A DNA stretch of 64,000 nt from Gemmatimonadaceae bacterium (GTDB lineage Bacteria; Gemmatimonadota; Gemmatimonadetes; Gemmatimonadales; Gemmatimonadaceae), in assembly GCA_020851035.1 (NCBI GenBank), contig JADZDM010000012.1:248001-312000 (forward strand). The letters are read 5' to 3'. Positions 12,031 through 33,960 of this stretch are shown here, in pieces. The translations under genes were made by a program, and so were the position numbers. The notes under the pieces are model-generated. The model was not told the origin of the DNA. It saw nothing but the letters and a program-made list of their open reading frames with translations, and made no database searches. The stretch's first letter is position 1, and every line of letters starts with the position of its first letter.

Positions 12031-12053
12031 CTGTCGTACCGAAGAGTGACCCG

Positions 12054-13583: not shown

Positions 13584-15247
13584 GTGCACCGACGGTGGGC
13601 CCGGTGCCGATGGCTGCACCTTCGGCATCCGAACGCCCGGCGGCACCACTCGCCGGGCCCTGGCTCATCGCGTTCATCGCGTCGGTCGTGCTGTCGCTGG
13701 TGCTGCTGCTGCTGACCTCGGGCAACCCGATCCTCGCGGCCACCCCGCTGATCATCGTGGCGGTGGTGTACCTGTTCACGGCGCTGCCGCTGCGGGTGCC
13801 GCTGCTCGTGCTGCTCTTCCTCGCCAGCCTGGCCGACTCCCTGCCGATCGCCGTGCCGATCAAGGCCAGTGGCGGCGTCGAGATCATCGGTGTCTCCACG
13901 GAGCTCTTCAACGCCGTGTCGTGGGCGCCGCCGCTGTACCCGTTGTACGCGGTCCTGTTCGAGAACCTGAACAAGGTGCTGCCGATCGAGGCGCTGCGCT
14001 TCTCGGCCGTCGACCTGCTCTACATCCTGTCACTGCTGCTGGTGCTGGTGCGGGTGGCCTTCCGGATCCGGGTCGACCGGCTCGACCGCCAGCCGGCGAC
14101 GACGGCGCTGCATCTCGTGATGGGCGGGGTGCTGCTCGGCGCCGTGTGGCTGGAGGTGTGGGGCGTGGGCCTGCGCGGTGGCGACTTCCGCCAGTCGCTC
14201 TGGCAGTTCCGGCAGCTCTTCTGGCTGCCCACCGTCACGATGCTCTTCGCGTATGCCTTCCGGGACATCCGCGACTTCAACCGCGCGATCAACCTCCTCA
14301 TCACGGCCGTCTGCATCAAGCTGGTGTTCGTGGTCTGGTTCTACTTCACCGTCGCGCGCCCGGGCCACTTCGAGCCCGCCACGATCACCAGCCATTACGA
14401 CTCGATCCTGTTCACGGTGACGATCGTGGCGCTGGTGGCACGCTACCTCCATGCCCCGGGCACGAAGAACCTCGTGCTCCTGGGCACGATCGGGACGTGG
14501 GTGCTGCTCGGCATCGTGCTCAACAACCGGCGGCTGGCGTTCGTGAGCCTCGGGGCGAGCCTGTTCGTGGTGTTCATCATGCTGCGTGGCCCGATGAAGA
14601 AGATGCTGCTGCGCGTGATGCTCTATGCCTCACCGCTGGTGGTGGCGTACGTGGTGGTCGGGCAGGCGGGCAACAGCCGCATCTTCAAGCCCGCCAAGCT
14701 GGTGACGTCGGTCATCAGGCAGGACGACCGGTCCAGCTCCACCCGTGACGTCGAGAACTACAACCTCCTCGTCACCCTCAAGCGCGTGAAGCTGCTGGGC
14801 AACGGGTGGGGGCACGAGTACATCGAGGCGGTGCGGGGCGACGACATCTCGGAGGCGTTCCCGCAGTACAAGTACCAGGCGCACAACAGCGTGCTCTGGC
14901 TCTGGACCGTCGGCGGACTGGTCGGGTTCTCTCTGCTCTGGATGCCGCTCTGCCTCGGCATCTTCCTCGCGCGCCGGGCGTACATCTTCGCCCGCGCGCC
15001 GGCCGATCGCGCGGCGGCGGCGATCGCGGTGTCGATGGTGATCACGTACATGATCCAGGCCTGGGGTGACCTTGGCACGCAGCACCTCAACTCCACGCTC
15101 GTCCTCGGCATCGCGCTCGCGACCGCGGCCAAGCTGGCGGTGAGCACGGGGGCCATGCCGGCGAAACTGCGCTTCGTCGGCGTGCGGCGCCCGGAGTCGC
15201 GTGTCCAGGCGCAGGCCCACGTGGCGTTCACGCCGGGCCAGGAGTGA
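13580..15247 (+). CDS. O-antigen ligase/polymerase family (Wzy-like) membrane protein
   Basis: This 555-residue polytopic membrane protein probably polymerises the repeat units at the periplasmic face. It has around twelve hydrophobic segments and a long hydrophilic loop before the last helices. That loop contains the conserved-type stretch LLGNGWGHEY followed by YQAHNSVLWLWTVGGLVGF, as in the Wzy_C/O-antigen ligase family. It starts at GTG 13580 in a GTGA overlap with the Wzz gene and ends in a GTGA overlap with the glycosyltransferase gene. Ligase and polymerase activities cannot be told apart by eye, but the position next to wzz favours polymerase. Confidence 0.8.
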   Translation: MSAPTVGPVPMAAPSASERPAAPLAGPWLIAFIASVVLSLVLLLLTSGNPILAATPLIIVAVVYLFTALPLRVPLLVLLFLASLADSLPIAVPIKASGGVEIIGVSTELFNAVSWAPPLYPLYAVLFENLNKVLPIEALRFSAVDLLYILSLLLVLVRVAFRIRVDRLDRQPATTALHLVMGGVLLGAVWLEVWGVGLRGGDFRQSLWQFRQLFWLPTVTMLFAYAFRDIRDFNRAINLLITAVCIKLVFVVWFYFTVARPGHFEPATITSHYDSILFTVTIVALVARYLHAPGTKNLVLLGTIGTWVLLGIVLNNRRLAFVSLGASLFVVFIMLRGPMKKMLLRVMLYASPLVVAYVVVGQAGNSRIFKPAKLVTSVIRQDDRSSSTRDVENYNLLVTLKRVKLLGNGWGHEYIEAVRGDDISEAFPQYKYQAHNSVLWLWTVGGLVGFSLLWMPLCLGIFLARRAYIFARAPADRAAAAIAVSMVITYMIQAWGDLGTQHLNSTLVLGIALATAAKLAVSTGAMPAKLRFVGVRRPESRVQAQAHVAFTPGQE

Positions 15248-16434
15248 CCGTGCCGACCGCTGCCGACGTCATCCTGCTGCTGCTGGCGCTGCCGGTGCTG
15301 CTCGCGACGGGGTACCTCGCCTGCCTCACGCTGCTCTCCGCGCGCGGGACGCCGCCGGCGCCGGACGAGTCGACCGTCTTCGACGTGATCGTGCCGGCGC
15401 ACAACGAGGCGGCCGGGATCGCCGCCACGGTCGCGAGCCTGCGGGCACTGTCGTACCCGGCGGAACGGTTCCGCATCCTGGTCATCGCCGACAACTGCAC
15501 CGACGACACGGCTGAGCGGGCCCGCGCGGCGGGAGCCACCGTGCTCGAGCGCCGCCACGCGACGGAGCGGGGCAAGGGCTATGCCCTGGCCCATGCGTAT
15601 GCCGCGTCCGCCGCCCACGGCCAGGCCTCTGCCGTGGTCGTGGTGGACGCCGACACGAGCGTCTCGCCGAACCTGCTCACCGCCTTCAGTGCGCGATTCG
15701 TGGCGGGTGCCGAGGCGGTGCAGGCCGAGTACGGCGTGCGCAATGCCAACGCGTCGTGGCGCACGCGGCTGATGGTCATCGCGCTCACGATGTTCCACAC
15801 TGTCCGCTCGCTCGGCCGCGAACGCCTCGGCCTGTCGTGCGGGCTGCGTGGCAACGGAATGGGATTCACCGCCGCGCTCCTCCAGCGGGTGCCGCCGCGC
15901 GCGTTCTCGATCGTCGAGGACGTGGAGTACGGCATCGCACTCGGACTGGCCGGCACCCGGGTCGTCCACGTGCCGGAGGCGGAGGTGCGCGGGGACATGC
16001 CCGCGTCGGCAGCCGCCTCCCGGTCGCAACGCGAGCGCTGGGAAGGGGGCCGGCTGGCGCTGATCCGGGAACATGTGCCGAGGCTGGTCGCCGCTGCGCG
16101 TGAGGCCGGTCGCGTGCCGCTGGACCTGGCCGCCGACCTGCTGGTCCCCCCGCTGACGACCCTCGGCGCGATCACCGGTGCCGGCCTGCTGGCGGCGCTC
16201 GTCGCGCTGTCCCGTGGCGCGGCAGGGGGGATGGCCGTCATTCCCTGGATGCTGGCCACGGCGGCCCTCGCCGCCTACGTGGTCCGCGGTGCGGTGTTGT
16301 CCGGAACCGGCCCGCGGGCCGTGCTCGACCTGCTGTGGGCACCGGTCTTCGCCGTCTGGAAGCTCACCTTGCTCCTCAAGCCCACCCGTCGCTCCGGCGA
16401 ATGGGTGCGCACCACGCGTTCGGACGAGATATGA
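15244..16434 (+). CDS. Processive-type family 2 glycosyltransferase
   Basis: This 396-residue membrane GT-A enzyme has an N-terminal TM helix (about 6-28). It shows the classic D, DxD, D, QxxRW pattern: VFDVIVPAHNE, VVVDADTSV, IVEDVEYGIAL and QRERW. Two or three TM helices follow at about 310-380. That arrangement is shared with cellulose- and hyaluronan-synthase-like enzymes. No PilZ domain is present. GTG 15244 overlaps the preceding stop, and a second GTG at 15250 is also usable. It likely adds sugars to the lipid-linked unit or elongates a chain directly. Confidence 0.87.
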   Translation: MTVPTAADVILLLLALPVLLATGYLACLTLLSARGTPPAPDESTVFDVIVPAHNEAAGIAATVASLRALSYPAERFRILVIADNCTDDTAERARAAGATVLERRHATERGKGYALAHAYAASAAHGQASAVVVVDADTSVSPNLLTAFSARFVAGAEAVQAEYGVRNANASWRTRLMVIALTMFHTVRSLGRERLGLSCGLRGNGMGFTAALLQRVPPRAFSIVEDVEYGIALGLAGTRVVHVPEAEVRGDMPASAAASRSQRERWEGGRLALIREHVPRLVAAAREAGRVPLDLAADLLVPPLTTLGAITGAGLLAALVALSRGAAGGMAVIPWMLATAALAAYVVRGAVLSGTGPRAVLDLLWAPVFAVWKLTLLLKPTRRSGEWVRTTRSDEI

Positions 16435-16979
16435 TCGGAATCGACATGAAGAAGAAACAGCCGCAGGAATCTGCCGAGGTCCATTCGTCGCCGTTCCGGG
16501 AGGACGAGTGGCCGGAGGAGATCGATGGCATCCGTCTCATCGCGCGCCCGGACATCGTTGCCGGGCCGGAAGACTGGCCCCCGGTCTGGTTCGCATTCGC
16601 GCAGCACCGCTGGTACTCGATGGTGCTGGTGCCGGCCCACGCCGGTGTGTCGGTGCTCGCCGTCTCGCGCGCACTGGCGAATGCCGGCCGCGCCTATGAT
16701 GAGCCGTCCCTCGGCCTCATCGAGGCGGAGCGCGTCGCGCCGGCACGCGTGCAGGGCATCGTCAACGACCTCCGCTCCCGGGGCACCCTCGAGCAGCGGA
16801 CGATCGTCGCCGTCGCCTCGCCGCTCGAGGACAACAGCGCGGTGCCGATCATCCGCGGGTGTGATGTCGCCGTCCTGGTCGTACCGCTTGGCGAGACCAG
16901 CCTCGAAGATGCTCGCCGGACCATGGCCGTCGTGGGTCGTGGTTCGTTCCTCGGTGCCATCACCGTATCGGCTCACTAA
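16431..16979 (+). CDS. Degenerate BY-kinase/CpsD-like protein (no P-loop)
   Basis: This is a 182-residue protein of uncertain function. The core lines up with bacterial tyrosine kinases of the CpsD/CapB type. MVLVPAHAGVSVLAVSRALANAG sits where the Walker A region and following helix belong, and CDVAVLVVPLGETSLEDARRTM plus the tail FLGAITVS match the end of that fold. The P-loop Gly-Lys-Ser/Thr, Walker A' and Walker B Asp-rich segments are absent, and there is no C-terminal Tyr cluster. It follows the glycosyltransferase in an ATGA overlap, and another ATG lies at 16446. A non-catalytic partner of the kinase-less Wzz is my inference. Confidence 0.6.
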   Translation: MIGIDMKKKQPQESAEVHSSPFREDEWPEEIDGIRLIARPDIVAGPEDWPPVWFAFAQHRWYSMVLVPAHAGVSVLAVSRALANAGRAYDEPSLGLIEAERVAPARVQGIVNDLRSRGTLEQRTIVAVASPLEDNSAVPIIRGCDVAVLVVPLGETSLEDARRTMAVVGRGSFLGAITVSAH

Positions 16980-16988
16980 GGCGGGTCC

Positions 16989-17822
16989 GTGCGTCATCGG
17001 GTACGGTTCGGCCGCCTCTGGGTGGATGCGCTGGGTTTCGACGAGGCGCTGCTGGCCGTGCGCGACCTGGTGAACCGGCGGCAGGGCGGGGCGATCTTCA
17101 CGCCGAACGTGGACCATGTCGTGATGGCCGACCAGCATGCCGGGCTGCGTCGCGCCTATCGCCGTGCCAGCCTCTCGTTCGCGGACGGCATGCCGCTGGT
17201 GTGGACGTCGCGACTGCTCGGCCGGAAGATTCCCGAGAAGCTCTCCGGCTCCGACATGCTGGTGCCGATCATCCAGCTCGCCGCGGCACAGGACTGGGGC
17301 GTCTACTTCCTTGGCGGCATGCCGGGGGTGCCGGGGGCCGCGGAGCTCGCGGCCGAGCGGCTGCACACCGAGTTCGGGGTGCGGATCGTGGGGGTCGATC
17401 CCGCGTTCGTGTCGATGAACGGGGATGGGCCGGATGACGCCGCGGTGGTGGAGCGGGTCCGTGCGGCCCGACCGGACCTCGTGTTCGTCGCCCTGGGCGC
17501 CCCGAAGCAGGAACTCTGGATCGCGCGCTCGCTGGACCAGATCCGGCCGGCGGTCGCGATCGGGTGCGGCGCCAGCCTGGACTTCATCTCCGGCCATGTC
17601 AGCCGTGCACCCGCCTGGGTGTCGAACGCGGGGTTCGAGTGGGCGTATCGACTGGCACAGGATCCTCGTCGTCTGTGGAAGCGATACCTCATCCGTGGAC
17701 CACGGTTCATCGGGATCCTCTTCCGGACGGCGCGACTCCTGAAGGCGCAGCGTGTGCGCACGGTGGCCCGCCGCGGGGTGGAACTCCCCGCGATCGTGGA
17801 GGCGGAGCGCGTACGACCATGA
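16989..17822 (+). CDS. WecG/TagA/CpsF family glycosyltransferase
   Basis: This enzyme likely adds N-acetylmannosamine(-uronate) or a similar sugar to a lipid-linked acceptor at the inner membrane. Family motifs are all visible: FTPNVDHVVMA (about 37-47), FADGMPLVW (about 65), GVYFLGGMPG (about 103), PDLVFVALGAPKQELWI (about 160-177) and GCGASLDFISG. The length of 277 residues is typical. The start is GTG at 16989, 9 bp after the previous stop. Its TGA overlaps the ATG of an 8-codon ORF that leads into the synthetase gene. Confidence 0.9.
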   Translation: MRHRVRFGRLWVDALGFDEALLAVRDLVNRRQGGAIFTPNVDHVVMADQHAGLRRAYRRASLSFADGMPLVWTSRLLGRKIPEKLSGSDMLVPIIQLAAAQDWGVYFLGGMPGVPGAAELAAERLHTEFGVRIVGVDPAFVSMNGDGPDDAAVVERVRAARPDLVFVALGAPKQELWIARSLDQIRPAVAIGCGASLDFISGHVSRAPAWVSNAGFEWAYRLAQDPRRLWKRYLIRGPRFIGILFRTARLLKAQRVRTVARRGVELPAIVEAERVRP

Positions 17823-17845
17823 CCGACAGACCCCACCTGCGTTGA
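17819..17845 (+). CDS. Eight-codon mini-ORF linking wecG-type gene and NRPS
   Basis: The peptide MTDRPHLR starts in an ATGA overlap with the stop of the glycosyltransferase gene. It ends in a TTGA overlap with the likely TTG start of the synthetase. That double junction could relay ribosomes from one gene to the next. It is not known to be translated, and a longer synthetase start at GTG 17752 would make it irrelevant. Confidence 0.3.
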   Translation: MTDRPHLR

Positions 17846-20800
17846 TCTCCGCTGACACCACCGCCGACTTCGATCCGTTCGCCGGACCCGCCATCACGCT
17901 GGGCGTGCCGTCCACCGAACCGCAGCGCGAGGTGTGGACGGCGTGCCAGATGGGGCGCGAGGGGTCGCTGGCCTTCAACGAGGCCGCGACGCTCCGCCTG
18001 CGGGGCGCGGTGCAGGTGGATGCGCTGTGCGCAGCGGTCGGCGCGCTGGTGGCGCGCCACGAGGCGCTGCGGTCCACGTTCAGCCGCGATGGCCTGACGA
18101 TGCTCGTGGGCGAGGCGCGACGGGATGTCGTCACGGTGCTGGACCTGTCCACCCTGGACTCCGCGATCCGGCATGAGCGGCGCGTAGCGCTGCTGAAGAA
18201 CGTGGTGACGGAGGAGTTCGACCTCGAGCTCGGGCCACTCGCGCGCTTCGTCGTGGTGCGCCTCTCCGATGTCGACGTCGAGCTGGTGATCGCGGCACAC
18301 CACATCGTCTGCGACGGCTGGTCGTTCGGCGTGCTCGCCTCGGACCTGGCGGCGCTCTACAACGCGCAGCGGTCCGGCGCGCCCGCGTGCCTACCAGCGG
18401 CCGAAGCGTTCAGCGCGCATGCCCGCGACGCCGCGGCCGCCGCGGTGTCCGGCGCGCGCCGCGAGGACGAGGCGTACTGGCTGGCGCGGTTCAGCGGAAC
18501 GCTCCCGGTGCTCGACCTCCCGGCCGATCGCGTGCATCCTGCCATGCGCACCTTCGGAGCCGGTCGCGAGGATCGCCTGATCCCCGCCGAGGTCGCGGGT
18601 GCGGTGCGTGCGGCCGGTGCGAGGGCCGGCAGCAGCGTGTTCGTCACGCTCCTCACTGCGTTCGCAACGCTCGTGCACCGGTTCAGCGGGCAGGACGACA
18701 TCGTGATCGGCGTGCCGGCGGCAGGTCAGTCGGCCATGGCGAAACCCGGGCTCGTCGGGCACTGCGTCAACATGCTGCCGATCCGCATCGCTGCCGACCC
18801 GGCGCGACCTTTCGACCGGATGCTCGCCGAGGTGCGCAGCACCACGCTCGACGCCTTCGAGCACCAGGCGATGGGTTTCGGCAGCCTCCTTGCACGGCTG
18901 CCCATCCCGCGCGATCCGAGCCGGTCGCCACTGGTGTCGGTCATCTTCAACCTCGACCGCTCGCTCCCACCGTCCGCGATGCCCTTCGACGGGCTCGAGG
19001 CCGACCTGCGCACCGTGCCGCGCGCGTTCGAGAACTTCGAGCTGTTCCTGAACGCCATCGAGACCGACGGCGGCATTGCGCTGGAGTGCCAGTACAACAC
19101 GGCGCTGTTCGACGCCACGACGATCCGGCGGTGGCTGGAAAGCTACGAGGTGCTGCTGCGCGGTGCGGCTGCGGCGCCGTCGTCTCCGACCGGCGACCTG
19201 CCGGTGCTCACGGCATCGGATGCGGCGATCCTCGATCGCTGCAACGACACCGCCATGGCGCTGCCCCCGGTCCGGCTGGTGCACCGGCTGGTCGAGGCGC
19301 AGGTCATGCAGACCCCGGCAGCCGTCGCCGTGACGTTCGAGGGGCAGTCGCTCTCGTATGCGGAACTCGACCGGCGCGCGAACCGCCTCGCCCATCACCT
19401 GCGCGCCGCCGGTGCCGGTCGCGACAGGCTCGTCGGCCTCTGCCTGGACCGGTCGCCCGACCTGCTCGTGGGACTGCTGGCGATCCTCAAGTGCGGCGCG
19501 GGCTATGTGCCACTCGACCCGAACTATCCGTCCGACCGCCTGCAGTTCATGGCGACCGACGCGGCCCTGTCGGCACTCGTGACCGAGACACACCTCGCCG
19601 GCGACCTGCACCGCCTGGCACCCGTCGTCGTGCGGATCGACGCCGATGCCGATGCGATCGCAGCGCGTCCCGCGACGCCGCTCGAGCCGTCGCCGTCCGA
19701 TGCTGGCCCCGATGACACGGCCTATGTGATCTACACCTCCGGGTCGACCGGCCGGCCGAAGGGAGTGCTCGTTCCGCATCGTGCAGTGGTCAACCTGCTC
19801 GCCAGTGTGCGGCGCGAACCGGGGCTCAGCGCCAGCGACGTGATGCTGGCGATCACCACCCTGTCGTTCGACATCGCGGTGTCCGAGGTGCTGCTGCCGC
19901 TCACGGTCGGGGCGCGGATCGTGCTTGCGTCCCGCGAGACAGCCACCGACGGGAGCGCACTGCTGCAGCTCATCGAGGCCAGCGGCGTGACGGTGATCGA
20001 CGCCACACCGGCCACCTACCGACTGCTCCTGGCCGACGGGTGGCGGGGGAGCGGGTCGCTGCGGCTGATCTGCACCGGCGAGGCGATGCCGCGCGACCTC
20101 GCGCAGGTGCTCACCGGCTGTGCCCGGGAAGTGTGGAACGGCTACGGTCCCACCGAGACCACCGTCTGGTCGACGTTCGCGAGGATCACGGCGCCGGTGG
20201 ACCGCGTGCTGATCGGCCGGCCGGTTGCGAACACGCAGGTGCGCATCCTCGACGCACGGGGGCACCAGGTGCCCGTCGGCGTGCCGGGCGAGTTGCTCAT
20301 CGCGGGGGAGGGGGTGAGCAGGGGGTACCTCAACCGCCCCGACCTGACGCGTGAGCGCTTCATCGCGATGCCGGAGACACCGGGTCGCTGCCGCTACCGG
20401 ACGGGCGACCTGGTGCGACTGCTCGCCACCGGGGAACTGGAGTGCCTCGGGCGCAACGACAACCAGGTGAAGGTGCGCGGGTTCCGGATCGAACCCGGCG
20501 AGATCGAGAGCGTGATTGCCCAGTGGCCCGGCGTGGAGTCGGCGGTGGTCGTGGCACGTGAGGATCGCGAGGGTGACGTGCGCCTCGTCGCCTACGTCGT
20601 CGCGGCGGCGGAGCAGGTGGTCGCCGACGGCCTTCGCGCACACGTGCGCGCGGCGCTCCCCGAGTACATGATCCCGAACCTCTTCATCACCCTGCCGTCA
20701 CTGCCGCTCACGCCGAGCGGCAAGGTGGACCGCAAGTCCCTGCCGGCGCCCGACGCCGCGGCGGACGTGGGGCACGAGCGCGCCTTCGTCGAGCCGCGCA

Positions 20801-23800
20801 CGGCGTCGGAGGCCATCGTCGCGTCGCTCTGGGCGGATGCGCTCGGGCTCGACCGTGTGAGCGTGCACGACGACTTCTTCGCACTGGGGGGGCATTCGCT
20901 CCTCGCCTCGCAGGTGTTGTCACGCCTCCGCCGCGACCACGGCGTGCTGGTGCCCTTCCGGCAGGTGTTCGAGTCACCGACCGTGGAGGCATTCGCCGCC
21001 ACGGTCGACGCGGTGCAGGCCACCGGCGACACGGCGTCGTCGCCTGCACACGACGCGATCCCGCATCGCGCGGGCGCGCAGGATGCGCCGCTCTCGGTGC
21101 TCCAGGAGCGGCTCTGGATGCTGGAGGAGTTGCAGCCGGGTCAGCGCGCGGCGCACGCGCACAGCGCGGCCTGGATACTCACCGGTGCACTCGACCTGGA
21201 CCGGCTGCAGCGCGCGCTCTCCGCGCTGGCGCAGCGCCACGCGGTGTTGCGCACCAGCTTCCGGCTGGTGAACGGTGAGCGCCGGCAGGTGGTCGCCGCG
21301 ACGGGTCGCCTCGTGCTCGGCATCCGCGACCTGTCGCACCTCGACGCAGCGACGCAGGACGCCGCGCTGCAGGCCTTCTTCCACGAGCAGCAGCACGCGC
21401 CGTTCGACGTGGGAACGGACCCGCTCTTCCGCGCCGTCGTCCTCCGCCTCGGGCCGTCGTCGCACATGCTCTACACGCTGCAGCACGGCATGATCTGGGA
21501 TGGGTGGAGTTTCGACCTTTTCCTGCAGGACCTTGCCGGGTTGTACGCCGCCGACGAGGCGGGGCGCGCCACGGCGCTGGCACCGCTGCCGGTGACCTAC
21601 GGAGACTTTGCCGCGTGGCAGTCGGGCTGGATGGACGGGGCGGAGGCGGCGCGGCAGGCTGCGTGGTGGCGAAGCCGGCTCGGTGGTGAGCTGCACGAGC
21701 TGGCACTGGCGACCGACCATGCACGACCGGCCGTGTCATCACACGGCGGCGCACAGGCCACCCTGGCGTTCACCGCCGGCGAGGCGGAACAGCTTCGTGC
21801 GCTGGCGCGGCGGCACGATGCCACTCTCTTCATGGTGGTGTTCGCGGCGTACAACGTGCTGCTGCATCGCTACTCGGGCCAGCGCGACCTGCTGGTCGGT
21901 TCGCCGGTGCGGGCGCGCACCCGGCCGGAGCTCGAGCCGGTGATCGGACCCTTTGTCAACACGGTGCTGCTCCGCACGCAGCTCGACCCGGCACAGCGGT
22001 TCACGGACGTGCTGGCAGCGGTGCGTGACGTCACGCTCGATGCGTTCAGCAACCAGGAGTTGCCGTTCGAGCGGCTCGACACGCGCGTGCCGCCGCTGCG
22101 GGTGCTGTTCTCCATGCAGGATGCCCGGGAACGGCCGGTGCGGATGGGCACGCTGGGGCTCGAGCAGTACCATGTCCCGCAGCACTTCGCGATGAACGAC
22201 ATGATGCTGTGGATGATGGAATCCCGGGAGAAGCTCATCGCGGTGCTGAACTACAGCACGGAGCTCTTCGAGCCGGCCAGCGCCGACCTGTTCCTGGCAC
22301 AACTGCAGGCGTTGCTGCGCGGCATCATCGCGGCCCCCGATGCCACGATCCTCAGCTTCGACCTCTCATCGCCGGCACAGTCCGGCGAAGCCAGCGTGCC
22401 TGCGGTGCCCGCGCCGGCAGCGCGATCCGTCGTCGCGGCGATCCGCTGGTGGGCCAGCCAGGATCCGGCGCGTGTGGCAGTGCGCGATGGGCGGGAGTTC
22501 TGCACGTACGGTGAGCTCGTCGCGAGGGCGCAGCGGGTGGCCAGCCACCTCGCACACCGCGGGTACGGACCGGGCCGTGCCGTGGCGATCGCGGTCTCGC
22601 GGGGTATCGATCGCAGCGCCCTGCTCATCGGCGCGCTGTGGGCCGGATGCCCGGTGTTGTGCCTCGACGGCGACGACGCGTCGGAGAGCAGTGCAGCGGC
22701 CATGCAGCGCAGTGATGCGGTCGCCTGTATCGCCGAGGGAGAGCGGAGCGCCGGAGCGGGTGTCGCGGTCCTGCGTGCAGAGACGCTGCTGCATGCCGAT
22801 GCGACGCCGGGCGAGCCCGATGATCGATCGGCGTGCGCCTCGGTGATCTCCGGTGCGCCGGACGACGACGGCACGGCCTACCCGGCACGCCGCACCCAGC
22901 ACGACCTGGCACTGGCAGTGGCGGCTGCAGGTGAGGTGATGGGGCTGCAGCGCGACGACGTCGTGCTCGCGATGCTGCCGGCAGCAGCACCACTCGCGAC
23001 GGTCGAGGTGTTCCTGCCGCTGGTGCACGGTGGTGCCCTCGTGTTCGCGTCGGACGACGCACGCGAGGAACCGCTCGACCTGGGTGACGAACTCGCTGAG
23101 GTGGCGGCGACGGTGATGTTCGCGACGGAAGACACCTGGCGGGGACTGCTCGAGACGACCTGGCAGGCGCCCGACCGCTTCGCCGCGCTGCTCGTTTCCG
23201 GTGGCCCAGCGGATGCGGCGCAGTTGCGTACGCTGGCCTCGCGAGCGAGCAGCGCATGGACCCTCCTCGCCGACGGCTCTGCGATGGGCCGGATCCTGCC
23301 CGGCGATGACACCAGCGTCGTCGAGCATGGGCTCGGCGGCGCGTTCCGTGTGGTCGATGGCTCGGGCGTCGCGGTGCCACGTGGCGTCCCTGGTGTGCTG
23401 CAGGGCACCGGCGGCGCGGCAGAGGCGCAGCCCTCGTGGCGCGCCCGCCACACGGCGGGTGGCCGCGTGCATCTGCTCGCGGCTGACGCCGACTGGATCT
23501 GGATGGAGGGTGTGCAAGTCCGCGCCGCAGCCGTCGAGCGAGCGATCGCGGGCCATGCCGCCGTGGCCGACGCGGCGGTGGCGGTCCACCGTGATGCCCG
23601 CGGCAACCGACGCCTCGTGGGGTACGTCGTCCCGGTGCCGGGCAGGCACGTCACCGAGACCGAGCTCCGGGCTGCGGTTCGTGCGCGACTCCCGCGCCGC
23701 TGCATCCCGCACCGGTTCGCCGAGGTCGCGGCGATCCCGCGCCGCGTCGACGGACGGGTGATCCGTGACGCGCTCGGCTCACCGTTCGCACCATCGGCGA

Positions 23801-24123
23801 CGGATCATGCGTCGGGCGCCCCACGTACCGCCACCGAGGTGCTGCTCGCGTCGCAGTGGCGCGCCGTGCTCGAGCTGGAGCAGGTCGCGGTCGGTGACAA
23901 CTTCTTTCACCTGGGTGGCACGTCGCTGCTCTGCTTCCGTGTGATCGAGCAGGTGCGCAGGGCCACGGGGCGGGTGCTCAATCCGCGTTCGCTCCTCGTC
24001 GGCACGCTCGGGCAGGTGGCCGCCGAACTCGATCGCGACGCACCCACGCCTGCCGACGCACCTGCCCCCGTCGGTGGCGTGCTCTCACGGATCCGGGAGC
24101 TGGCCCGCGGCATCGGCGACTGA
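17842..24123 (+). CDS. Nonribosomal peptide synthetase, C-A-PCP-C-A(degenerate)-PCP
   Basis: This protein of about 2090 residues has two modules. Module 1 looks intact: condensation motif HHIVCDG (18298), adenylation motifs YTSGSTGRPKG (19732), GYGPTET (20140), YRTGDL (20395) and GKVDRK, and carrier motif LGGHSLLA (20884). Module 2 is degraded. The condensation motif is HGMIWDG (21484), with the catalytic second His replaced by Gly. The A domain lacks the phosphate-loop, GYGPTE and YRTGD motifs, and ends in DGRVIRD without the catalytic Lys. The final carrier motif LGGTSLL (23908) is kept. There is no thioesterase. By eye the module-1 pocket reads D-I-S-A-I-T-G-V-W-K, which I cannot assign. 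I use TTG 17842; in-frame GTG 17752 is the alternative. Confidence 0.88.
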   Translation: MISADTTADFDPFAGPAITLGVPSTEPQREVWTACQMGREGSLAFNEAATLRLRGAVQVDALCAAVGALVARHEALRSTFSRDGLTMLVGEARRDVVTVLDLSTLDSAIRHERRVALLKNVVTEEFDLELGPLARFVVVRLSDVDVELVIAAHHIVCDGWSFGVLASDLAALYNAQRSGAPACLPAAEAFSAHARDAAAAAVSGARREDEAYWLARFSGTLPVLDLPADRVHPAMRTFGAGREDRLIPAEVAGAVRAAGARAGSSVFVTLLTAFATLVHRFSGQDDIVIGVPAAGQSAMAKPGLVGHCVNMLPIRIAADPARPFDRMLAEVRSTTLDAFEHQAMGFGSLLARLPIPRDPSRSPLVSVIFNLDRSLPPSAMPFDGLEADLRTVPRAFENFELFLNAIETDGGIALECQYNTALFDATTIRRWLESYEVLLRGAAAAPSSPTGDLPVLTASDAAILDRCNDTAMALPPVRLVHRLVEAQVMQTPAAVAVTFEGQSLSYAELDRRANRLAHHLRAAGAGRDRLVGLCLDRSPDLLVGLLAILKCGAGYVPLDPNYPSDRLQFMATDAALSALVTETHLAGDLHRLAPVVVRIDADADAIAARPATPLEPSPSDAGPDDTAYVIYTSGSTGRPKGVLVPHRAVVNLLASVRREPGLSASDVMLAITTLSFDIAVSEVLLPLTVGARIVLASRETATDGSALLQLIEASGVTVIDATPATYRLLLADGWRGSGSLRLICTGEAMPRDLAQVLTGCAREVWNGYGPTETTVWSTFARITAPVDRVLIGRPVANTQVRILDARGHQVPVGVPGELLIAGEGVSRGYLNRPDLTRERFIAMPETPGRCRYRTGDLVRLLATGELECLGRNDNQVKVRGFRIEPGEIESVIAQWPGVESAVVVAREDREGDVRLVAYVVAAAEQVVADGLRAHVRAALPEYMIPNLFITLPSLPLTPSGKVDRKSLPAPDAAADVGHERAFVEPRTASEAIVASLWADALGLDRVSVHDDFFALGGHSLLASQVLSRLRRDHGVLVPFRQVFESPTVEAFAATVDAVQATGDTASSPAHDAIPHRAGAQDAPLSVLQERLWMLEELQPGQRAAHAHSAAWILTGALDLDRLQRALSALAQRHAVLRTSFRLVNGERRQVVAATGRLVLGIRDLSHLDAATQDAALQAFFHEQQHAPFDVGTDPLFRAVVLRLGPSSHMLYTLQHGMIWDGWSFDLFLQDLAGLYAADEAGRATALAPLPVTYGDFAAWQSGWMDGAEAARQAAWWRSRLGGELHELALATDHARPAVSSHGGAQATLAFTAGEAEQLRALARRHDATLFMVVFAAYNVLLHRYSGQRDLLVGSPVRARTRPELEPVIGPFVNTVLLRTQLDPAQRFTDVLAAVRDVTLDAFSNQELPFERLDTRVPPLRVLFSMQDARERPVRMGTLGLEQYHVPQHFAMNDMMLWMMESREKLIAVLNYSTELFEPASADLFLAQLQALLRGIIAAPDATILSFDLSSPAQSGEASVPAVPAPAARSVVAAIRWWASQDPARVAVRDGREFCTYGELVARAQRVASHLAHRGYGPGRAVAIAVSRGIDRSALLIGALWAGCPVLCLDGDDASESSAAAMQRSDAVACIAEGERSAGAGVAVLRAETLLHADATPGEPDDRSACASVISGAPDDDGTAYPARRTQHDLALAVAAAGEVMGLQRDDVVLAMLPAAAPLATVEVFLPLVHGGALVFASDDAREEPLDLGDELAEVAATVMFATEDTWRGLLETTWQAPDRFAALLVSGGPADAAQLRTLASRASSAWTLLADGSAMGRILPGDDTSVVEHGLGGAFRVVDGSGVAVPRGVPGVLQGTGGAAEAQPSWRARHTAGGRVHLLAADADWIWMEGVQVRAAAVERAIAGHAAVADAAVAVHRDARGNRRLVGYVVPVPGRHVTETELRAAVRARLPRRCIPHRFAEVAAIPRRVDGRVIRDALGSPFAPSATDHASGAPRTATEVLLASQWRAVLELEQVAVGDNFFHLGGTSLLCFRVIEQVRRATGRVLNPRSLLVGTLGQVAAELDRDAPTPADAPAPVGGVLSRIRELARGIGD

Positions 24124-24142
24124 CCGCGGCTGCGTTCGCGCG

Positions 24143-25024
24143 TCAGGGCACCGGTGGCGCGAGCGTTTCCAGGAAGAAGGCTCGGAGTCGCGATGCGACG
24201 CTGGTGTCGGCCGCGATGTAGCCGCCGTGACTGGCCGCCGGCACCACCCAGAGCTGCTTGGGCTCCCCGGCAGCGGCGTGCACGGCGCGCGTCAGCGGCG
24301 GGGGAACGGTGACATCCCGGAGGCCGGTGATGAAGACGATCGGGCGGGGGGCGATCCCGGCGACGATGTCCACCACGCGGTCCGGCCGGCGCGCGAGGCC
24401 GGCGAGCCTGGCGCCGAGCACCGCCCCCCACTGCGCGGCGAGCCCGGAGCGCTGGTACTCGGCCAGCGTCTGTGACCGGGGCTCGTCGAACGCACCTTCC
24501 ACCACGAAACCCGCGACACGCATATCGCTGGCCCCTTCCAGCAGCGACGCCCAACTGCCGAGCGAGAATCCCAGGATCCCGATGCGGCCCGGGCGTACAT
24601 CCGGGCGACTCGCGACGAAATCGACGGCGCCACGGACGGCAGCGCGCTCCGCGTCGCCCACGCCGATCGTGCCGTCGCTCTCGCCGCAGCCCGGCCAATC
24701 GAAGACCAGCACACCAAGGCCGCCAGCCACGAGCGCACGGGCCTCGTTCAGCATGCCGGTCCTGTCCGTGCCGCTCCCCCCCGCGAGGATCACGGCTGCC
24801 CCGGTGCGCGACGGCACGTACCAGCCCCGCAGCGTGGTCCCGCTCGCGCCGGCGAACTGCACGTCCTGCACCCCGGGAAGCGACCCGTCCCGCGGCCGTT
24901 GCGGGCGCGAGCGTGGTGCATGGAAGTTATTGTACTCGTATCGCGCGCTATGGACCCCGCGCGCGAGTTGCCAGCTCACGAGCAGGACGACGATGACGAG
25001 TACGAGACGCCCCAGGAGCTTCAT
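24143..25024 (-). CDS. Membrane-anchored alpha/beta-hydrolase
   Basis: This 293-residue hydrolase has an N-terminal signal anchor (MKLLGRLVLVIVVLLVSW) and should act outside the cytoplasmic face. The nucleophile elbow GFSLGS supplies Ser, an acidic residue lies in GLRDVTVP, and the His is in ASHGGY, so the triad is complete. The oxyanion region is GGSGTDRTG. It converges on the synthetase gene with 19 bp between the stops. It diverges from the phosphopantetheinyl transferase gene. It could release or trim the synthetase product, since the synthetase lacks a thioesterase, but only position suggests that. ATG 25024 was chosen because sequence upstream of it is not protein-like. Confidence 0.83.
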   Translation of the reverse strand: MKLLGRLVLVIVVLLVSWQLARGVHSARYEYNNFHAPRSRPQRPRDGSLPGVQDVQFAGASGTTLRGWYVPSRTGAAVILAGGSGTDRTGMLNEARALVAGGLGVLVFDWPGCGESDGTIGVGDAERAAVRGAVDFVASRPDVRPGRIGILGFSLGSWASLLEGASDMRVAGFVVEGAFDEPRSQTLAEYQRSGLAAQWGAVLGARLAGLARRPDRVVDIVAGIAPRPIVFITGLRDVTVPPPLTRAVHAAAGEPKQLWVVPAASHGGYIAADTSVASRLRAFFLETLAPPVP

Positions 25025-25134
25025 GCCGGGAATCGCGGTGCGGTGGTGCGGTCGCGCGACGACGTGGCGCGCGCGGGTCGCGTGACCACGGCTGGAAGAT
25101 ACGGCGCGGTGCGGCGGGTGTCCGGCGGGGAGCG

Positions 25135-25917
25135 ATGACCAGCCCGGCCGCCCTCGCGGATGACGTGCGTCGGTTTCGCCGGCTCCCGGTGCCGGCGCCG
25201 TTCGCGGAGTACGGCGCTGCGGCGTGTGTCGCGCTGGCCGAGGTGTCCGCGGCGGCCAGCGGCACGGGCGAGGTGGAGATGTCCCACGCCGTCCTCGCGG
25301 CCTCGTTGGACAGGGCGGTGCGGTCCCGGATCCGGTCGCACCTGGCCGGCCGCCACTGCGCAGGCACGGCCATCGCGGCACTCACCGGTGCCGACGCCGC
25401 TGTCACGATTCCGATCGGACCGCTCGGCGCTCCGGTGTGGCCGGCGGGGCTGGTCGGGTCGATCACGCATGGGGGCCCACTTGCCGCCGCGGTGGTGGCG
25501 CCGGACAGCAGGTGGCGGGGAATCGGCATCGACTGCGAGCGACTCCTGCCCGACGCCGAGTCGGACGACATCGTCGGGCTCGTGTTCCCCGAAGCGGCAG
25601 CCACGCGCGTCCTGAGCGCGGGTGTGCCCGCGAGTCGTGGCAGACTCGTCTCGGTGGCCTTCTCCGCGAAGGAGAGCCTCTACAAGTGCCTCGCACCGCT
25701 GGCGGGGCAGTTCTTCGACTTCACGGCGGCACGGGTCGAGGAGATCGACTTCGAGCGCGGCACGGTGCGGCTGCTGGTGACGGAGCCGGTCGGCGGACCC
25801 ATCGCACCCGGGCTGTTGCTCACGGCGCGCTTCCGCGTCGATCAGGATCATGTCTACTCGGCCGTCGGTCTCCCCGTCCTCGACCACACTCCCGGCGCCA
25901 GCGCGCCACCCGGGTGA
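25135..25917 (+). CDS. Sfp/EntD-type 4'-phosphopantetheinyl transferase
   Basis: This enzyme attaches phosphopantetheine from CoA to the serine of carrier domains, here most likely the two on the adjacent synthetase. The family signatures are GIGIDCERL (about residue 126) with the Mg-binding Asp and Glu, and FSAKESLYKCL (about 180) with the conserved Lys-Glu-Ser...Lys. The GSITHGG segment matches the EntD-like CoA-binding motif. The length of 260 residues suits the Sfp/EntD group rather than AcpS. It heads a rightward trio with two hydrolase genes that follow closely. Confidence 0.92.
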   Translation: MTSPAALADDVRRFRRLPVPAPFAEYGAAACVALAEVSAAASGTGEVEMSHAVLAASLDRAVRSRIRSHLAGRHCAGTAIAALTGADAAVTIPIGPLGAPVWPAGLVGSITHGGPLAAAVVAPDSRWRGIGIDCERLLPDAESDDIVGLVFPEAAATRVLSAGVPASRGRLVSVAFSAKESLYKCLAPLAGQFFDFTAARVEEIDFERGTVRLLVTEPVGGPIAPGLLLTARFRVDQDHVYSAVGLPVLDHTPGASAPPG

Positions 25918-25936
25918 GTGGCAGCCACGCCCCGTG

Positions 25937-26752
25937 ATGATTCCCGCCCGGGCCGTCCCGCACACCGTCCCGACGTTCTTCGGCAGTGCGGAGCGTCGGC
26001 TCTTCGGCCTGTATCACGCGCCATCCGGCGACACGGTCCGCGCAGCTGGTGTCGTGTTGTGCCATCCGGCGCCGCAGGAGTACAGCCAGACCTACTGGGC
26101 GTTCAACAAGCTGGCGGGTATGTTGGCGTCCGCCGGCTTCCACGTGTTGCGCTTCGACTACGGCGGCACCGGTGACTCGTCGGGTGAGTCGGCCGACGCG
26201 CGGCTGGCCCAGTGGGTGGGTGACATCGGTACCGCGGTGCAGGAGCTGCGTGACCTCGCGGGCGTCCGGCGCATCTCACTCGTCGGCATGCGCGTCGGTG
26301 CGGCACTGGCGGCGCGTGCGACGGCTGCAGGCGTGCGCGTTCGTGACCTTGTGCTGTGGGAGCCGGTGGTCTCGGGCCCGGCGTACCTGGCGGAGCTGGA
26401 CGCCGTCGAGGATCGCCGTCTGGGGCTGCTCAACTATCCCGAACCCGACACGCGCCTGGACGATGAGCTGATGGGCTATGCGTTCCCCCACGCCATGCGT
26501 CGCGAGACCGCTGCCATCGACCTCACGACGGAGTCGGTCGGTCGTGCCGACCGGCTGCTCATCGTCGGCGCGCTCGACGTCCCGTCGTGGGCCACGATCG
26601 CGGCCCGGTCGGCGGCGGCGGGCATCGCTGCCACCGTGACCCGTGTCCCGGATCCCGTGCTCTATGCAGGTGTCGGCCATCCGTCGGACACGATCCTGCC
26701 ACACGAGGCGCCGCTGGCGATCACGGCGTTCCTTGCCCGGGCGAACGCATGA
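25937..26752 (+). CDS. Alpha/beta-hydrolase-fold protein lacking the nucleophile serine
   Basis: This 271-residue protein has an alpha/beta-hydrolase fold, with VVLCHPAPQEYSQTYWAF near the N-terminus and LRFDYGGTGDSSGE as the typical strand-loop. The nucleophile elbow, normally GxSxG, reads LVGMRVGAALA, so Arg occupies the Ser position. This resembles the GLRxG form I recall from exosortase-A-associated hydrolase 2 proteins, though no exosortase is visible here. It may be a non-hydrolytic acyl carrier or binder. The start is ATG 25937, 19 bp after the transferase gene, and the stop overlaps the next ATG by 4 bp. Confidence 0.75.
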   Translation: MIPARAVPHTVPTFFGSAERRLFGLYHAPSGDTVRAAGVVLCHPAPQEYSQTYWAFNKLAGMLASAGFHVLRFDYGGTGDSSGESADARLAQWVGDIGTAVQELRDLAGVRRISLVGMRVGAALAARATAAGVRVRDLVLWEPVVSGPAYLAELDAVEDRRLGLLNYPEPDTRLDDELMGYAFPHAMRRETAAIDLTTESVGRADRLLIVGALDVPSWATIAARSAAAGIAATVTRVPDPVLYAGVGHPSDTILPHEAPLAITAFLARANA

Positions 26753-27570
26753 CCGAACGTGCGGTGGCGTTCGGGCCGCGCAATGGGCTCATCGGAGTGC
26801 TCACGGAACCACAGGTGCCGGCGGCCGGCGTGCGGCGTGCGGTGATCATGTCGAACATCGGCATGCATCACCGGGTCGGGCCGTTCCGCCTGTACGTCGA
26901 GCTGGCACGACGGCTGGCGGCCAGCGGGCTGCATGTGCTGCGCTTCGACCTGTCCGGCATGGGCGACAGCCTGCTGCGCACGGATGTCGTGACCACGGCC
27001 GAGCGCGCCGCGGCTGACCTGGCGGATGCGATGGACTGGCTGCAGCGGGAATGTGGGGTGGGGGAGTTCCTGCTGGTGGGCCTGTGCTCGGGCGTGGACA
27101 GTACGCACGCTGCCGCGGCCCGGGACGAGCGCGTGGTGGGGGCGGTGTTCATCGACGGGTATTCGTATCCCACGCCCGGCTATCGCATCCGCCACCTGAC
27201 ACGCCGACCCCTGCAGGCCGGCCGCTGGGTGCGATTCGGGCAGCGCCTGCTCCGGGGCGAGCGCCGCACGGCGCGCGCGTCGGACAACGCGACGGTCTTC
27301 GCGCGCGAGACACCGGACCGGCCGCAGTTCGCACGCGATGTCGGCGCCATGACGGCGCGCGGTGCGCGGCTGCTCTTCATCTACACTGGTGGCGTGTACC
27401 ACCGCTTCAACTCCCCGCGCCAGGTGCACGAGATGCTCGCCGGCGCGGTCCGCCTCGATCGCATCGAGGTGGACCTCATGCGCGACGCCGATCACGTGTT
27501 CTCGCGCACGGAGCAGCGTCGCGCGCTCTACGACCGGGTGGTCGGCTGGGCGGCGTCGATCGGGGGCTGA
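26749..27570 (+). CDS. Alpha/beta-hydrolase with cysteine nucleophile elbow
   Basis: This 273-residue hydrolase has the fold landmarks HVLRFDLSGMGDS and a C-terminal histidine region (MRDADHVF). The elbow reads LVGLCSGVDS, placing Cys where Ser is usual (G-L-C-S-G). That form is seen in exosortase-associated hydrolase 1 and in some thioesterase-like enzymes. The start overlaps the previous stop (ATGA). The pair of unlike hydrolases behind a phosphopantetheinyl transferase suggests transfer or release of a carrier-bound acyl or aminoacyl group, which is inferred. Confidence 0.8.
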   Translation: MTERAVAFGPRNGLIGVLTEPQVPAAGVRRAVIMSNIGMHHRVGPFRLYVELARRLAASGLHVLRFDLSGMGDSLLRTDVVTTAERAAADLADAMDWLQRECGVGEFLLVGLCSGVDSTHAAAARDERVVGAVFIDGYSYPTPGYRIRHLTRRPLQAGRWVRFGQRLLRGERRTARASDNATVFARETPDRPQFARDVGAMTARGARLLFIYTGGVYHRFNSPRQVHEMLAGAVRLDRIEVDLMRDADHVFSRTEQRRALYDRVVGWAASIGG

Positions 27571-27592: not shown

Positions 27593-29320
27593 TCAGGGCG
27601 TGATGACGAGCGTGCTCACGCTCATCGACGGCATGCTGTAGTCCACCGTCGAGCCGGTGATCGTGGGCGCCGCTGCCGCGCGCGTCGGGGAAGGCGAACC
27701 GTGCATCATCACCCACGCGCCGGCGGAGCCGGGCGTGAAGCCGCCGGCGATGCCGATGTGCGCGACGCGCGTCGTGGAGGTCTTGTTGATCGCCACCACC
27801 ACCAGCCGCCCGCTCGCATCGCGGCTTGCGTAGACCGAGCTCGCCGCCACGTCCGATGACCGTGCTTGCACCCCCGTGTCGCCGAACCGGCCGCCGGAGC
27901 CGTCGTAGTTCAGGAACATGCGGAAGGCGCCGAAGACGTACGCGTACGCCTTGCGCCCATCGCCATTCCACGGTGCCGCCCAGACCTGAGCCTGCGGCCA
28001 GAGTGCCGCGGCGAACAGCCCCTCGCGCCCGAACACGCCCAGCGCGTCGGCCTGCGCCACGCCGCCGGAGATGTCGCCCCCGCGGCCGTAGTAGTACTCC
28101 GTGATGGCCAGCTTCGTCCCGGGATAGTGCGCCGCCACCTGCGCCCGCAGCCGCGGGAGGAGGCGGATCGGTCCGCCCGTCACGCCGGACACCCAGCTCC
28201 CCTCGTCGTACGTCGGGTCCCAGAGCGAACGCGGCGCCTGCACACGCTTCTGGATCATCGCCGCATCCTGCACGGCGTAGTCGTTCCCGATCTCGCCGTT
28301 GCTGGTGCCGCTCGCCCCGTACCAGTGCAGGTCGAGCACGTCCAGCAGTCGCCTGCCGCCCGCAGTGTGGGCGGCGCGCATGCGGTCCAGGTACACGTCG
28401 AAGAAGTTCTGCGCGCCGAACTGCGGATCGGGCGAGGGATACCGGCCGGCCGTCACGACGCCGGCGTAGGTGGCGACGGCGGGGCCGAACACCAGCGCCT
28501 CCGGCAGCACGGCCTTGATGGCGCGGGCATAGGCAATGCTCGTGTCGCTCAGGCCGGCGAACGACTGCAGTCGCGGCGAGGCGGCGCGATCGCCGCTGTC
28601 ACTCTGGATCTGCTTGTGCGTGGAGTGCCAGATGTCCGGTTCGTTGTCCAGGGTGAAGAAGACCGGTGCCGTGGCATGCGTCTCGCGCCCGGGAAACGTC
28701 CGGCTGAACCAGTGCACGAACTCGTCCTGGTACACCACGCCATCGCGCGTGTCCGGTGCCACGGAGAACGCGGCCCCCTTCGCCGCGCGGCTCGGCAGGA
28801 AGTGGCGGGAGAGCCGTGTGGCACGTGTCGCGTCGGCGGTGTCGAGTGGCTCCCCGTTGGCGTTGCCTGCGACGTGGCCGAGCATCGGCACCGTCGCCAT
28901 GAAGGCCTGCCCACGCGCGAACGAGGGTGCGGCGCGCGTCCGGACGGCCTCACCGGGCGTGCCGCTCGCGCTCAGGAACTCGTCATTCTGGAAGCGGTAG
29001 TCACGGCCGGCGTTGCTGTGGTTCGTCTCCCAGTTCCAGGCCGTGAGCCGGTTGCCGCCGAACCGGTTCAGCGTCATCTCGGGCGGCGGCGTCGCGCCTC
29101 CATAGGCGCTGGGGTCGTCGATGAAGTTGCCACCGTAGATGAACCGGGAGATCGCGAACGTCACCGCGGGATCGATCGTGAAGGTGACATCGGCGCCGAC
29201 GGGCTCACCGACGCCGGTGCTCCGGTCGGGTGACGCGCCGCCACAACCGATCAGCAGCGCGATCGAGAACCCGAGTGCGCGGCGGATCAACTTGCCGGAC
29301 GAAGAGGCGAACTGGAGCAT
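27593..29320 (-). CDS. Glycoside hydrolase family 44-like lipoprotein, short paralogue
   Basis: This 575-residue secreted glycanase has a lipobox LLIGC (Cys26). It keeps the GH44-like core with LNRFGGNRLTAWNW, acid/base Glu227 in LDNEPDIW and nucleophile Glu408 in ITEYYYG, followed by a C-terminal beta domain. It is colinear and clearly similar with the C-terminal 530 residues of the protein at 1652-4111, but lacks that protein's roughly 250-residue N-terminal region. Its ATG lies 6 nt after a TAAATT box, so the mRNA may be leaderless. It is divergent from a secreted DUF1996 gene. It likely degrades or edits a beta-glycan, own or foreign. Confidence 0.82.
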   Translation of the reverse strand: MLQFASSSGKLIRRALGFSIALLIGCGGASPDRSTGVGEPVGADVTFTIDPAVTFAISRFIYGGNFIDDPSAYGGATPPPEMTLNRFGGNRLTAWNWETNHSNAGRDYRFQNDEFLSASGTPGEAVRTRAAPSFARGQAFMATVPMLGHVAGNANGEPLDTADATRATRLSRHFLPSRAAKGAAFSVAPDTRDGVVYQDEFVHWFSRTFPGRETHATAPVFFTLDNEPDIWHSTHKQIQSDSGDRAASPRLQSFAGLSDTSIAYARAIKAVLPEALVFGPAVATYAGVVTAGRYPSPDPQFGAQNFFDVYLDRMRAAHTAGGRRLLDVLDLHWYGASGTSNGEIGNDYAVQDAAMIQKRVQAPRSLWDPTYDEGSWVSGVTGGPIRLLPRLRAQVAAHYPGTKLAITEYYYGRGGDISGGVAQADALGVFGREGLFAAALWPQAQVWAAPWNGDGRKAYAYVFGAFRMFLNYDGSGGRFGDTGVQARSSDVAASSVYASRDASGRLVVVAINKTSTTRVAHIGIAGGFTPGSAGAWVMMHGSPSPTRAAAAPTITGSTVDYSMPSMSVSTLVITP

Positions 29321-30756: not shown

Positions 30757-31902
30757 TCAGTCAGCGGCCAGCCCGTCCTCGTGCACGCGCCGTTCCTCGG
30801 CCAGTCCCAGCACGCGCCGCATCCCGTTGTCGAACCGGGGCGTGGAGAATCGCTGGGCATTGCTCCGGCAGGCCTCGGCGGTGATCTCACGCTCGTGGGC
30901 GTAGAAGTCGTCCAGCGCACGCACGATCGCGTTCGGGGTCTGCGCCCCGAAGAAGACGCCGGTGGGTCGCTCGTGGTCGAGGCCCCGGATCGTCTCGGTG
31001 GCCGCACCGCGCCCGAACGCGATCACCGGCGTGCCGCACGACTGCGCCTCCAGCGGCGTGATCCCGAAGTCCTCCTCGGCCGCGAAGAGGAACGCGCGCG
31101 ATGACTGCAGGTGGCGGCGCAGCTCGGGCAGCGGCAGCCGGCCGGTGAAGTGCACGTTCGGTGGCGCGCCGGCGGCGATGGCCGCGCGCCCCGGGCCGTC
31201 GCCGATCACGATCAGGCGCTCGTTCGGGCGCAGCCGGAAGGCCTCCACCAGCAGGTCGATGCGCTTGTACTGCACGATGCGGCCGGCGGTGACGAAGTTC
31301 GTCGAGCGCGGCTCGGCATTCAGCGTGAACCCCTCGGTGTCCACGGGCGGGTGCACGACGACGCTCTCGCGACCGTAGCATCGCTTGATCCGGGCCGAGA
31401 TGTAGGCGGAATTCGCGACGAACTCCGTCACGCCGGCGGCGCTGCGCCGGTCCCAGTCCCGCAGCTGCGACAGCACCTGCCGCGCCGCCCATGCCTTCGG
31501 GCCGCGGAAGCCGCTGGTGTCGAGGTAGGCACTCTCCAGGTCCCACGCGTACCGCATCGGCGTATGGCAGTAGCAGACGTGTCGCGTGCCCTTCGGCACC
31601 GTGATGCCCTTCGCCACCGCATGCGAGCTCGAGACGATCAGGTCGTAGCCGGTGAAGTCCCACGCCTTGATGGCCATCGGCATCAGCGGCAGCAGCATCC
31701 GGTACTTCTCGGCCAGCCGCGGCATGTGTTGCAGCGCGGTGGTGTGCGGCTTCCGGCCGAGCAGCCCGCCGCGGTACTCCTCGGGCAGCACGTCGATGGT
31801 CGAGAAGAGCTCCGCCTCCGGCAGCAGCGTGAGGAGCCGCTCCAGCACGCACTCGGCGCCGGCCCACGTCGTCAGCCAGTCATGGATGATGGCAACGCGC
31901 AT
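30757..31902 (-). CDS. Family 4 glycosyltransferase
   Basis: This 381-residue GT-B enzyme has the N-terminal acceptor domain MRVAIIHDWLTTWAGAE, the inter-domain start FVTAGRIVQYKRIDLLVEAF (about residue 205) and the EX7E-type nucleotide-sugar motif EEDFGITPLEAQSCG (about 290). The sequence CYCHTPMRYAWD is typical of mannosyl/rhamnosyl GT4 enzymes of capsule loci. Its ATG overlaps the stop of the upstream heptosyltransferase-like gene. It is the last gene of the second polysaccharide locus. The donor sugar cannot be read from sequence. Confidence 0.9.
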   Translation of the reverse strand: MRVAIIHDWLTTWAGAECVLERLLTLLPEAELFSTIDVLPEEYRGGLLGRKPHTTALQHMPRLAEKYRMLLPLMPMAIKAWDFTGYDLIVSSSHAVAKGITVPKGTRHVCYCHTPMRYAWDLESAYLDTSGFRGPKAWAARQVLSQLRDWDRRSAAGVTEFVANSAYISARIKRCYGRESVVVHPPVDTEGFTLNAEPRSTNFVTAGRIVQYKRIDLLVEAFRLRPNERLIVIGDGPGRAAIAAGAPPNVHFTGRLPLPELRRHLQSSRAFLFAAEEDFGITPLEAQSCGTPVIAFGRGAATETIRGLDHERPTGVFFGAQTPNAIVRALDDFYAHEREITAEACRSNAQRFSTPRFDNGMRRVLGLAEERRVHEDGLAAD

Positions 31903-33955: not shown

Positions 33956-33960
33956 CGCCG

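Follow-up and report, generated by a model that had tools for sequence, protein, structure and literature searches.

A conserved Arg-type and Cys-type hydrolase pair behind a thioesterase-less peptide synthetase: a candidate two-protein release unit in a Gemmatimonadaceae exopolysaccharide locus

Introduction

To our knowledge, no function has been described for either of the exosortase A system-associated hydrolases 1 and 2 (families TIGR03100 and TIGR03101). Hydrolases of the same fold class include DcsB and GrgF, which act in trans to release the products of polyketide synthases (PKSs), and the nucleophile of GrgF is a cysteine. GrgF joins two polyketide chains (PMC8902786). In the Bcam1330-1341 exopolysaccharide (EPS) cluster of Burkholderia cenocepacia, a TIGR03100 hydrolase (Bcam1334) adjoins an Acyl_transf_3 gene, and the paper on this cluster does not mention an exosortase (PMC3584217). 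We found no paper in the open-access collection searched that links such hydrolases with nonribosomal peptide synthetases (NRPSs). Here we analyzed a stretch of 64,000 nucleotides (the window; contig JADZDM010000012.1, here C12, positions 248001-312000) from a 4.97-Mb Gemmatimonadaceae genome (G000), in which a tandem pair of hydrolases, H1 and H2, stands downstream of an NRPS that has no thioesterase and is flanked by polysaccharide genes. Genomes are labeled G and fetched loci L, and genes outside the window were called with our own caller.

Results

The NRPS (17842..24123, + strand, TTG start) is dimodular, with the domain order C-A-T-C-A-T (C, condensation; A, adenylation; T, carrier) and a degenerate second A domain. 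Domains were assigned with Pfam and NCBIfam profiles and by comparison with full-length relatives. PF00668, PF00501 and PF00550 each matched two stretches, Pfam detected no thioesterase domain, and the protein ends in a carrier domain. H1 (25937..26752, +) and H2 (26749..27570, +) are alpha/beta hydrolases whose reading frames overlap by ATGA; the nucleophile elbow carries Arg in H1 (GMRVG, Arg119) and Cys in H2 (GLCSG, Cys113). An earlier reading of this DNA from its letters only (the sequence-only reading) had described the genes at 17842-27570, the lack of a thioesterase and both elbows. We found all of these genes to be present and correctly placed, and the elbows to be exact and common to the whole family.

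The Arg and Cys elbows are not due to chance or sequencing error, because they are nearly invariant in homologues that were collected with patterns lacking the elbow motif. An alignment of H2, scanned against 84,980 species genomes, gave 262 relatives, the best 80 of which were read. Genome sampling was uneven, and some loci are on contigs of metagenome-assembled genomes; two of them (L044 and L045) are near-identical but were assigned to two phyla in the same project, probably a binning error. Among 90 H2 homologues, Cys113 was conserved in all, His249 in 89 and position 136 (Asp in the window, Asp or Glu in the family) in 88. Arg119 was conserved in 83 of 84 H1 homologues, in which there was no conserved catalytic His. 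Neither protein matched the Pfam Thioesterase family, and the H2 nucleophile was Cys rather than Ser throughout. The predicted structures are confident alpha/beta hydrolases (predicted local distance difference test scores of 89.5 and 92.7), and the PDB entries nearest to them are feruloyl-esterase and PETase-like enzymes; DcsB and GrgF were likewise recovered as relatives. From the profiles, alignments and models, H1 is presumed to be the non-catalytic half, and H2 the catalytic half, of a release unit.

The pair occupies the position that a thioesterase has in NRPSs and PKSs, directly behind the terminal carrier domain. The 80 fetched loci, from many phyla, contained 83 H2 genes. H1 adjoined H2 in 76 of the 83, and a gene with a carrier domain was immediately upstream, through H1, in 61. 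All of the synthetases scored (54/54) stopped no more than 60 aa past the carrier domain and had no C-terminal thioesterase. There were also natural fusions. Rhodopirellula maiorica (L104) has a single A-T-H1-H2 chain; H1 is fused behind the last carrier domain in L080, L093, L101, L108 and L115, and behind a C domain in L066, each time with H2 as the next gene; and H1 is fused to H2 in two relatives from the window's own family (L036 and L037). Because the fusions place H1 after the last carrier domain, H1 stands at the thioesterase position. Identities of the NRPS, H1 and H2 were correlated (0.73-0.84) among 11 divergent, less redundant cassettes, with none of 5000 permutations reaching these values; the same correlations were 0.97-0.99 in a redundant set of 20 cassettes.

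Discrete hydrolases next to synthetases often have an editing function, as is known for type II thioesterases, and H1 and H2 might likewise clear mis-primed carriers while release occurs elsewhere. The cis fusions at the release position, the consistent absence of a thioesterase from the synthetase end and the two-protein make-up argue against editing, and we regard it as improbable. Judging from residues and gene order, H1 and H2 are probably a two-protein release unit for the thioesterase-less NRPS. In one locus (L119:10001-17563), H2 forms the N-terminal part of an A-T-KS protein downstream of a C-A-T-C-A-T synthetase and H1, a fusion in which the chain could possibly be handed over to another module instead of being released.

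Many synthetases that precede the pair carry, after the last carrier domain, a linker and a short hydrophobic-cationic stretch (for example L050:2741-9196, L103:2685-9128 and L112:2539-9036). Such a tail was present in 27 of 43 terminal synthetases compared with 2 of 33 non-terminal proteins ending in a carrier domain (P = 2e-7), by a criterion picked post hoc, when the tails had already been seen and a prior test of hydrophobic moment had proved too crude. We read the tail as a putative docking or membrane-contact element.

The NRPS of the window belongs, by alignment, to a family of dimodular synthetases of about 2100 aa, one sublineage of which has lost its second A domain. The first A domain (A1) is intact and can be aligned from end to end with A domains of known structure. 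The second (A2; 22384..23740, +), whose degeneration the sequence-only reading had not noted, has lost motifs A3, A5, A7 and A10. The same loss was found in G031 (48% identity over 2132 aa) and in a member of the Sorangiineae (L058; 46% over 1643 aa), and A2 is intact in full-length relatives from Corallococcus (42%), a gammaproteobacterium (34%) and Bradyrhizobium (30%). The second carrier domain (T2) was intact in the window and in all full-length relatives compared. Because A2 is degenerate, the loading of T2 would have to fall to A1 or take place in trans. Substrate codes were taken from motifs, without a trained predictor. The A1 code, DISD(I/V)T-GVW-K, is common to the window, G031 and L058 and had no assignable match among known codes; in most relatives the last intact A domain has a Gly-like code, DILQ..(M/L)(V/I)W. 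Used as a phylum-wide probe, A2 matched mostly ordinary A/T parts.

The loss of the A2 motifs, together with replacement of the first His by Gln in the HHxxxDG motif of the second C domain (C2), might indicate a decaying cassette with a synthetase that makes no product. However, G031 and L058 share the A2 loss at 41-49% identity with the frame and T2 intact, and the key residues of A1, T1, T2, H1 and H2 are intact in the window, so that decay seems slightly less probable even than editing. That three distant lineages have kept the pseudo-A domain in frame suggests, from sequence comparison, that A1 may charge both carriers or that A2 may have a structural role. Separately, there is a conserved cluster in Corallococcus (L043, L047-L054 and L057) that encodes an AT-ACP-class III aminotransferase protein, a C-A-T-C-A-T NRPS with two Gly-like codes, H1 and H2, and looks like a putative, unassigned beta-amino-acyl-Gly-Gly pathway.

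The cassette lies between two sets of polysaccharide genes. The left EPS locus (8227..17822, +) encodes a sugar transferase (PF02397), a porin-like protein, Poly_export, a chain-length protein, Wzy, an EpsU-like GT2, a protein without an assigned role and an EpsA-like WecG, as assigned with Pfam and NCBIfam. To the right are an EpsB-like GH44 glycoside hydrolase of the EPS locus (27593..29320, -), a DUF1996 protein and a second polysaccharide locus (30757..41591, -) with GT4, GT9, a methyltransferase, Wzy, a Wzz-like protein, GT2, Wzx and an SLBB export protein. The left and right loci are contiguous in G036, from the same genus. Both flanks are kept in G036 (EpsA 80%, GT4 87% and GT9 76% identity), and a single Acyl_transf_3 gene replaces the whole 13-kb cassette stretch. 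A related EPS locus in G016 has Acyl_transf_3, a GNAT protein and a serine-hydrolase homologue, and no NRPS. From these two comparisons, the cassette occupies the slot of polymer-modifying acyltransferases in related clusters. EpsU-type loci occurred in 7 of 179 genomes of Gemmatimonadaceae. The cassette of G031 has the corresponding location, and there an additional A-T-KS-T protein precedes H1-H2. In L112 and L121 an Acyl_transf_3 gene directly follows H2.

The link to polysaccharide genes that the sequence-only reading had drawn was borne out statistically. Of 49 genomes, 19 had a PF02397 sugar transferase no more than 45 kb from H2, where a uniform null predicted 2.5 (P about 3e-13); for a distance of up to 12 kb the numbers were 7 observed and 0.7 expected. 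A synthetase and the pair stand directly beside EPS core genes in Kangiellaceae (L080 and L115), HTCC2143 (L109) and PMG_192 (L112).

The pair might instead release a free peptide or lipopeptide, its proximity to EPS genes arising from co-regulation in biofilms or from co-inheritance. Many NRPS-H1-H2 clusters, among them those of Corallococcus, Bradyrhizobium and several PKS hybrids, have no visible EPS genes, and large multimodular lines (more than 3000 aa in L063, L095, L097 and L102) resemble natural-product pathways. The sequence-only reading had held that a cassette routinely found away from polysaccharide genes and with a known free peptide product would count against it; the first half of this was observed, and no free product is known. 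On the other side, among the clusters listed, 5 of 16 NRPS clusters with H2 were near a sugar transferase compared with 0 of 45 without H2, a comparison in which Corallococcus and Aliikangiella weigh heavily. In addition, the pair occurs in XrtA-type EPS loci with no NRPS visible (L062 and L067), and the congener has an acyltransferase in the cassette slot. A free product is, in our judgment, unlikely, though well ahead of editing or decay.

The sequence-only reading had treated five genes as one cassette, and in this respect it was not upheld: the core is three genes, NRPS, H1 and H2. The predicted membrane-anchored serine hydrolase (24143..25024, -) does have an N-terminal hydrophobic anchor and a GFSLGS elbow, as described. 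Homologues of this gene and of the GH44 gene are present in the G016 EPS locus without an NRPS, and by this comparison both belong to the EPS locus. The Sfp-type phosphopantetheinyl transferase (25135..25917, +) was also correctly named (PF17837, 56.3 bits; PF01648, 40.9 bits; both over cut-off). It is the only 4PPT_N protein that we found in the genome, a point absent from the sequence-only reading, so it probably serves every carrier protein and is not specific to the cassette. It would also have to serve further NRPS/PKS genes of the genome at G000:C12:322889-331138 (L158) and G000:C21:569761-571557 (A-T-KS protein; a 5061-aa open frame).

Other features of the region were noted. Composition does not mark the cassette as a recent foreign island (GC 0.715-0.72 compared with 0.70-0.715 in the flanks, with unremarkable GC3), and no flanking repeats or tRNA were found at its ends, although the congener lacks it. 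A small protein at 16431-16979, without a Pfam or NCBIfam match, recurs near EpsU/Wzz in G016, G031, G036 and G392. Upstream of the window, in the same polysaccharide region, is a second carrier-based system (G000:C12:229870-235913; L161/L160), a row of genes for a small ACP-like protein (no Pfam hit), SDR, an A-domain-like ligase, LuxE, LuxC, a PglD-like protein and a PglC-type sugar transferase.

The sequence-only reading likened the pair to exosortase-A-associated hydrolases and saw no exosortase. The likeness holds, below the level of family membership: the best matches were TIGR03101 (hydr2_PEP) for H1, at 96.7 bits against a cut-off of 202.75, and TIGR03100 (hydr1_PEP) for H2, at 86.1 bits against 168.45. 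No TIGR03100 member over the cut-off was found in 12 genomes. The Cys/Arg elbow is shared by pair members in XrtA-type EPS loci. The window has no exosortase, but a single exosortase gene is present elsewhere in the genome, on contig C20 (L038, G000:C20:130700-150662) beside a DUF3485 (EpsI-like) gene, so the absence is true of the locus and not of the genome. An MBOAT gene and a small ACP-like gene are within 10 kb of that exosortase.

The family names and this exosortase might suggest that the pair is part of an exosortase/PEP-CTERM system. An exosortase was within 45 kb of H2 in 8 of 49 genomes, and in two Marinobacter genomes (G344 and G346) the pair lies between an exosortase and a sugar transferase. 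However, the exosortase of G000 is on another contig with no H1 found near it, the scores are about half of the cut-offs, and 22 of the 49 genomes with H2 had no exosortase match. We rejected membership in that system on linkage and scores, and consider it the least probable of the alternatives by some way.

Discussion

The early steps of the proposed pathway (priming, activation and condensation) are established NRPS enzymology. Sfp would prime T1 and T2, A1 would activate an amino acid, the first C domain (C1) would accept an acyl or peptidyl donor, and C2 would extend the chain or transfer it to T2. H1, with its conserved Arg and no catalytic nucleophile, may bind the carrier as one half of an H1-H2 heterodimer that docks on T2. 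Cys113 of H2, in a predicted Cys-His-Asp triad, would then take the acyl or peptidyl chain as an acyl-enzyme, and H2 might pass it to water, to an EPS precursor or to another carrier. Because the unit occupies the modification slot of an EPS locus, the released group would most likely decorate the polymer or its lipid-linked precursor, either directly or through an Acyl_transf_3-type enzyme, rather than constitute an unrelated metabolite. We propose an EPS-bound acceptor tentatively, as somewhat short of an even chance. The combined proposal, a thioesterase-less NRPS with release by H1-H2 and decoration of EPS, with no acceptor atom named, seems to us about evenly balanced.

Several observations weigh against this proposal. 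Most loci had no polysaccharide gene in the 10-kb flanks read. Among the 4 readable Gemmatimonadaceae EPS loci of the window's type, just 2 held the cassette. The null used for enrichment near sugar transferases takes placement as uniform and genomes as independent, and ignores phylogeny. For the window itself, the degenerate A2 puts the charging of T2 and the activity of this copy in question, an upstream donor for the first C domain (a PKS/aminotransferase, as in Corallococcus) was not found in the window, and the C-terminal tail of the NRPS fails the tail criterion. If the proposal is correct, it would provide a function for two orphan families whose members are present in many EPS loci, explain product release by many thioesterase-less NRPS and PKS lines across phyla, and make the Cys/Arg pair a genomic mark of synthetases whose product may reach polysaccharide.

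The cassette resembles several known systems in part. Like type I and type II thioesterases of NRPSs and PKSs, the pair has the alpha/beta-hydrolase fold and a place after the last carrier domain; unlike them, it has no Pfam Thioesterase match, uses Cys for Ser and includes a second, altered subunit. DcsB and GrgF are also discrete and act on assembly-line products, but they are fungal single proteins of low identity, whereas the unit found in bacteria consists of two subunits, one of them Arg-type. If the acceptor is EPS, the cassette would share with the Dlt system (D-alanylation of teichoic acid) an adenylation domain, a carrier and transfer to an envelope polymer. It differs from Dlt in having a multimodular synthetase with condensation domains and no DltB (MBOAT) or DltD; no MBOAT match was found by Pfam among the cassette genes scanned. 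Genes resembling EpsA, EpsB and EpsU of the Myxococcus xanthus EPS locus lie on either side of the cassette, but they score below the NCBIfam equivalog cut-offs, and those models include no NRPS and H1-H2 in the locus. The Bcam1330-1341 cluster has a hydrolase of this kind beside an acyltransferase gene, with no NRPS described. The closest relatives are the exosortase A system-associated hydrolases, which are also tandem pairs in EPS loci, XrtA-type loci included (L062, L067 and L109). The pair described here differs in its scores, its association with an NRPS and its lack of a linked exosortase. A more doubtful extension is that Arg-type and Cys-type proteins form a general two-protein unit for acyl transfer from NRPS and PKS carriers to exopolysaccharide, in which case exosortase-A-associated hydrolases 1 and 2 would be this same machine, served by a ligase and a carrier that stand alone.

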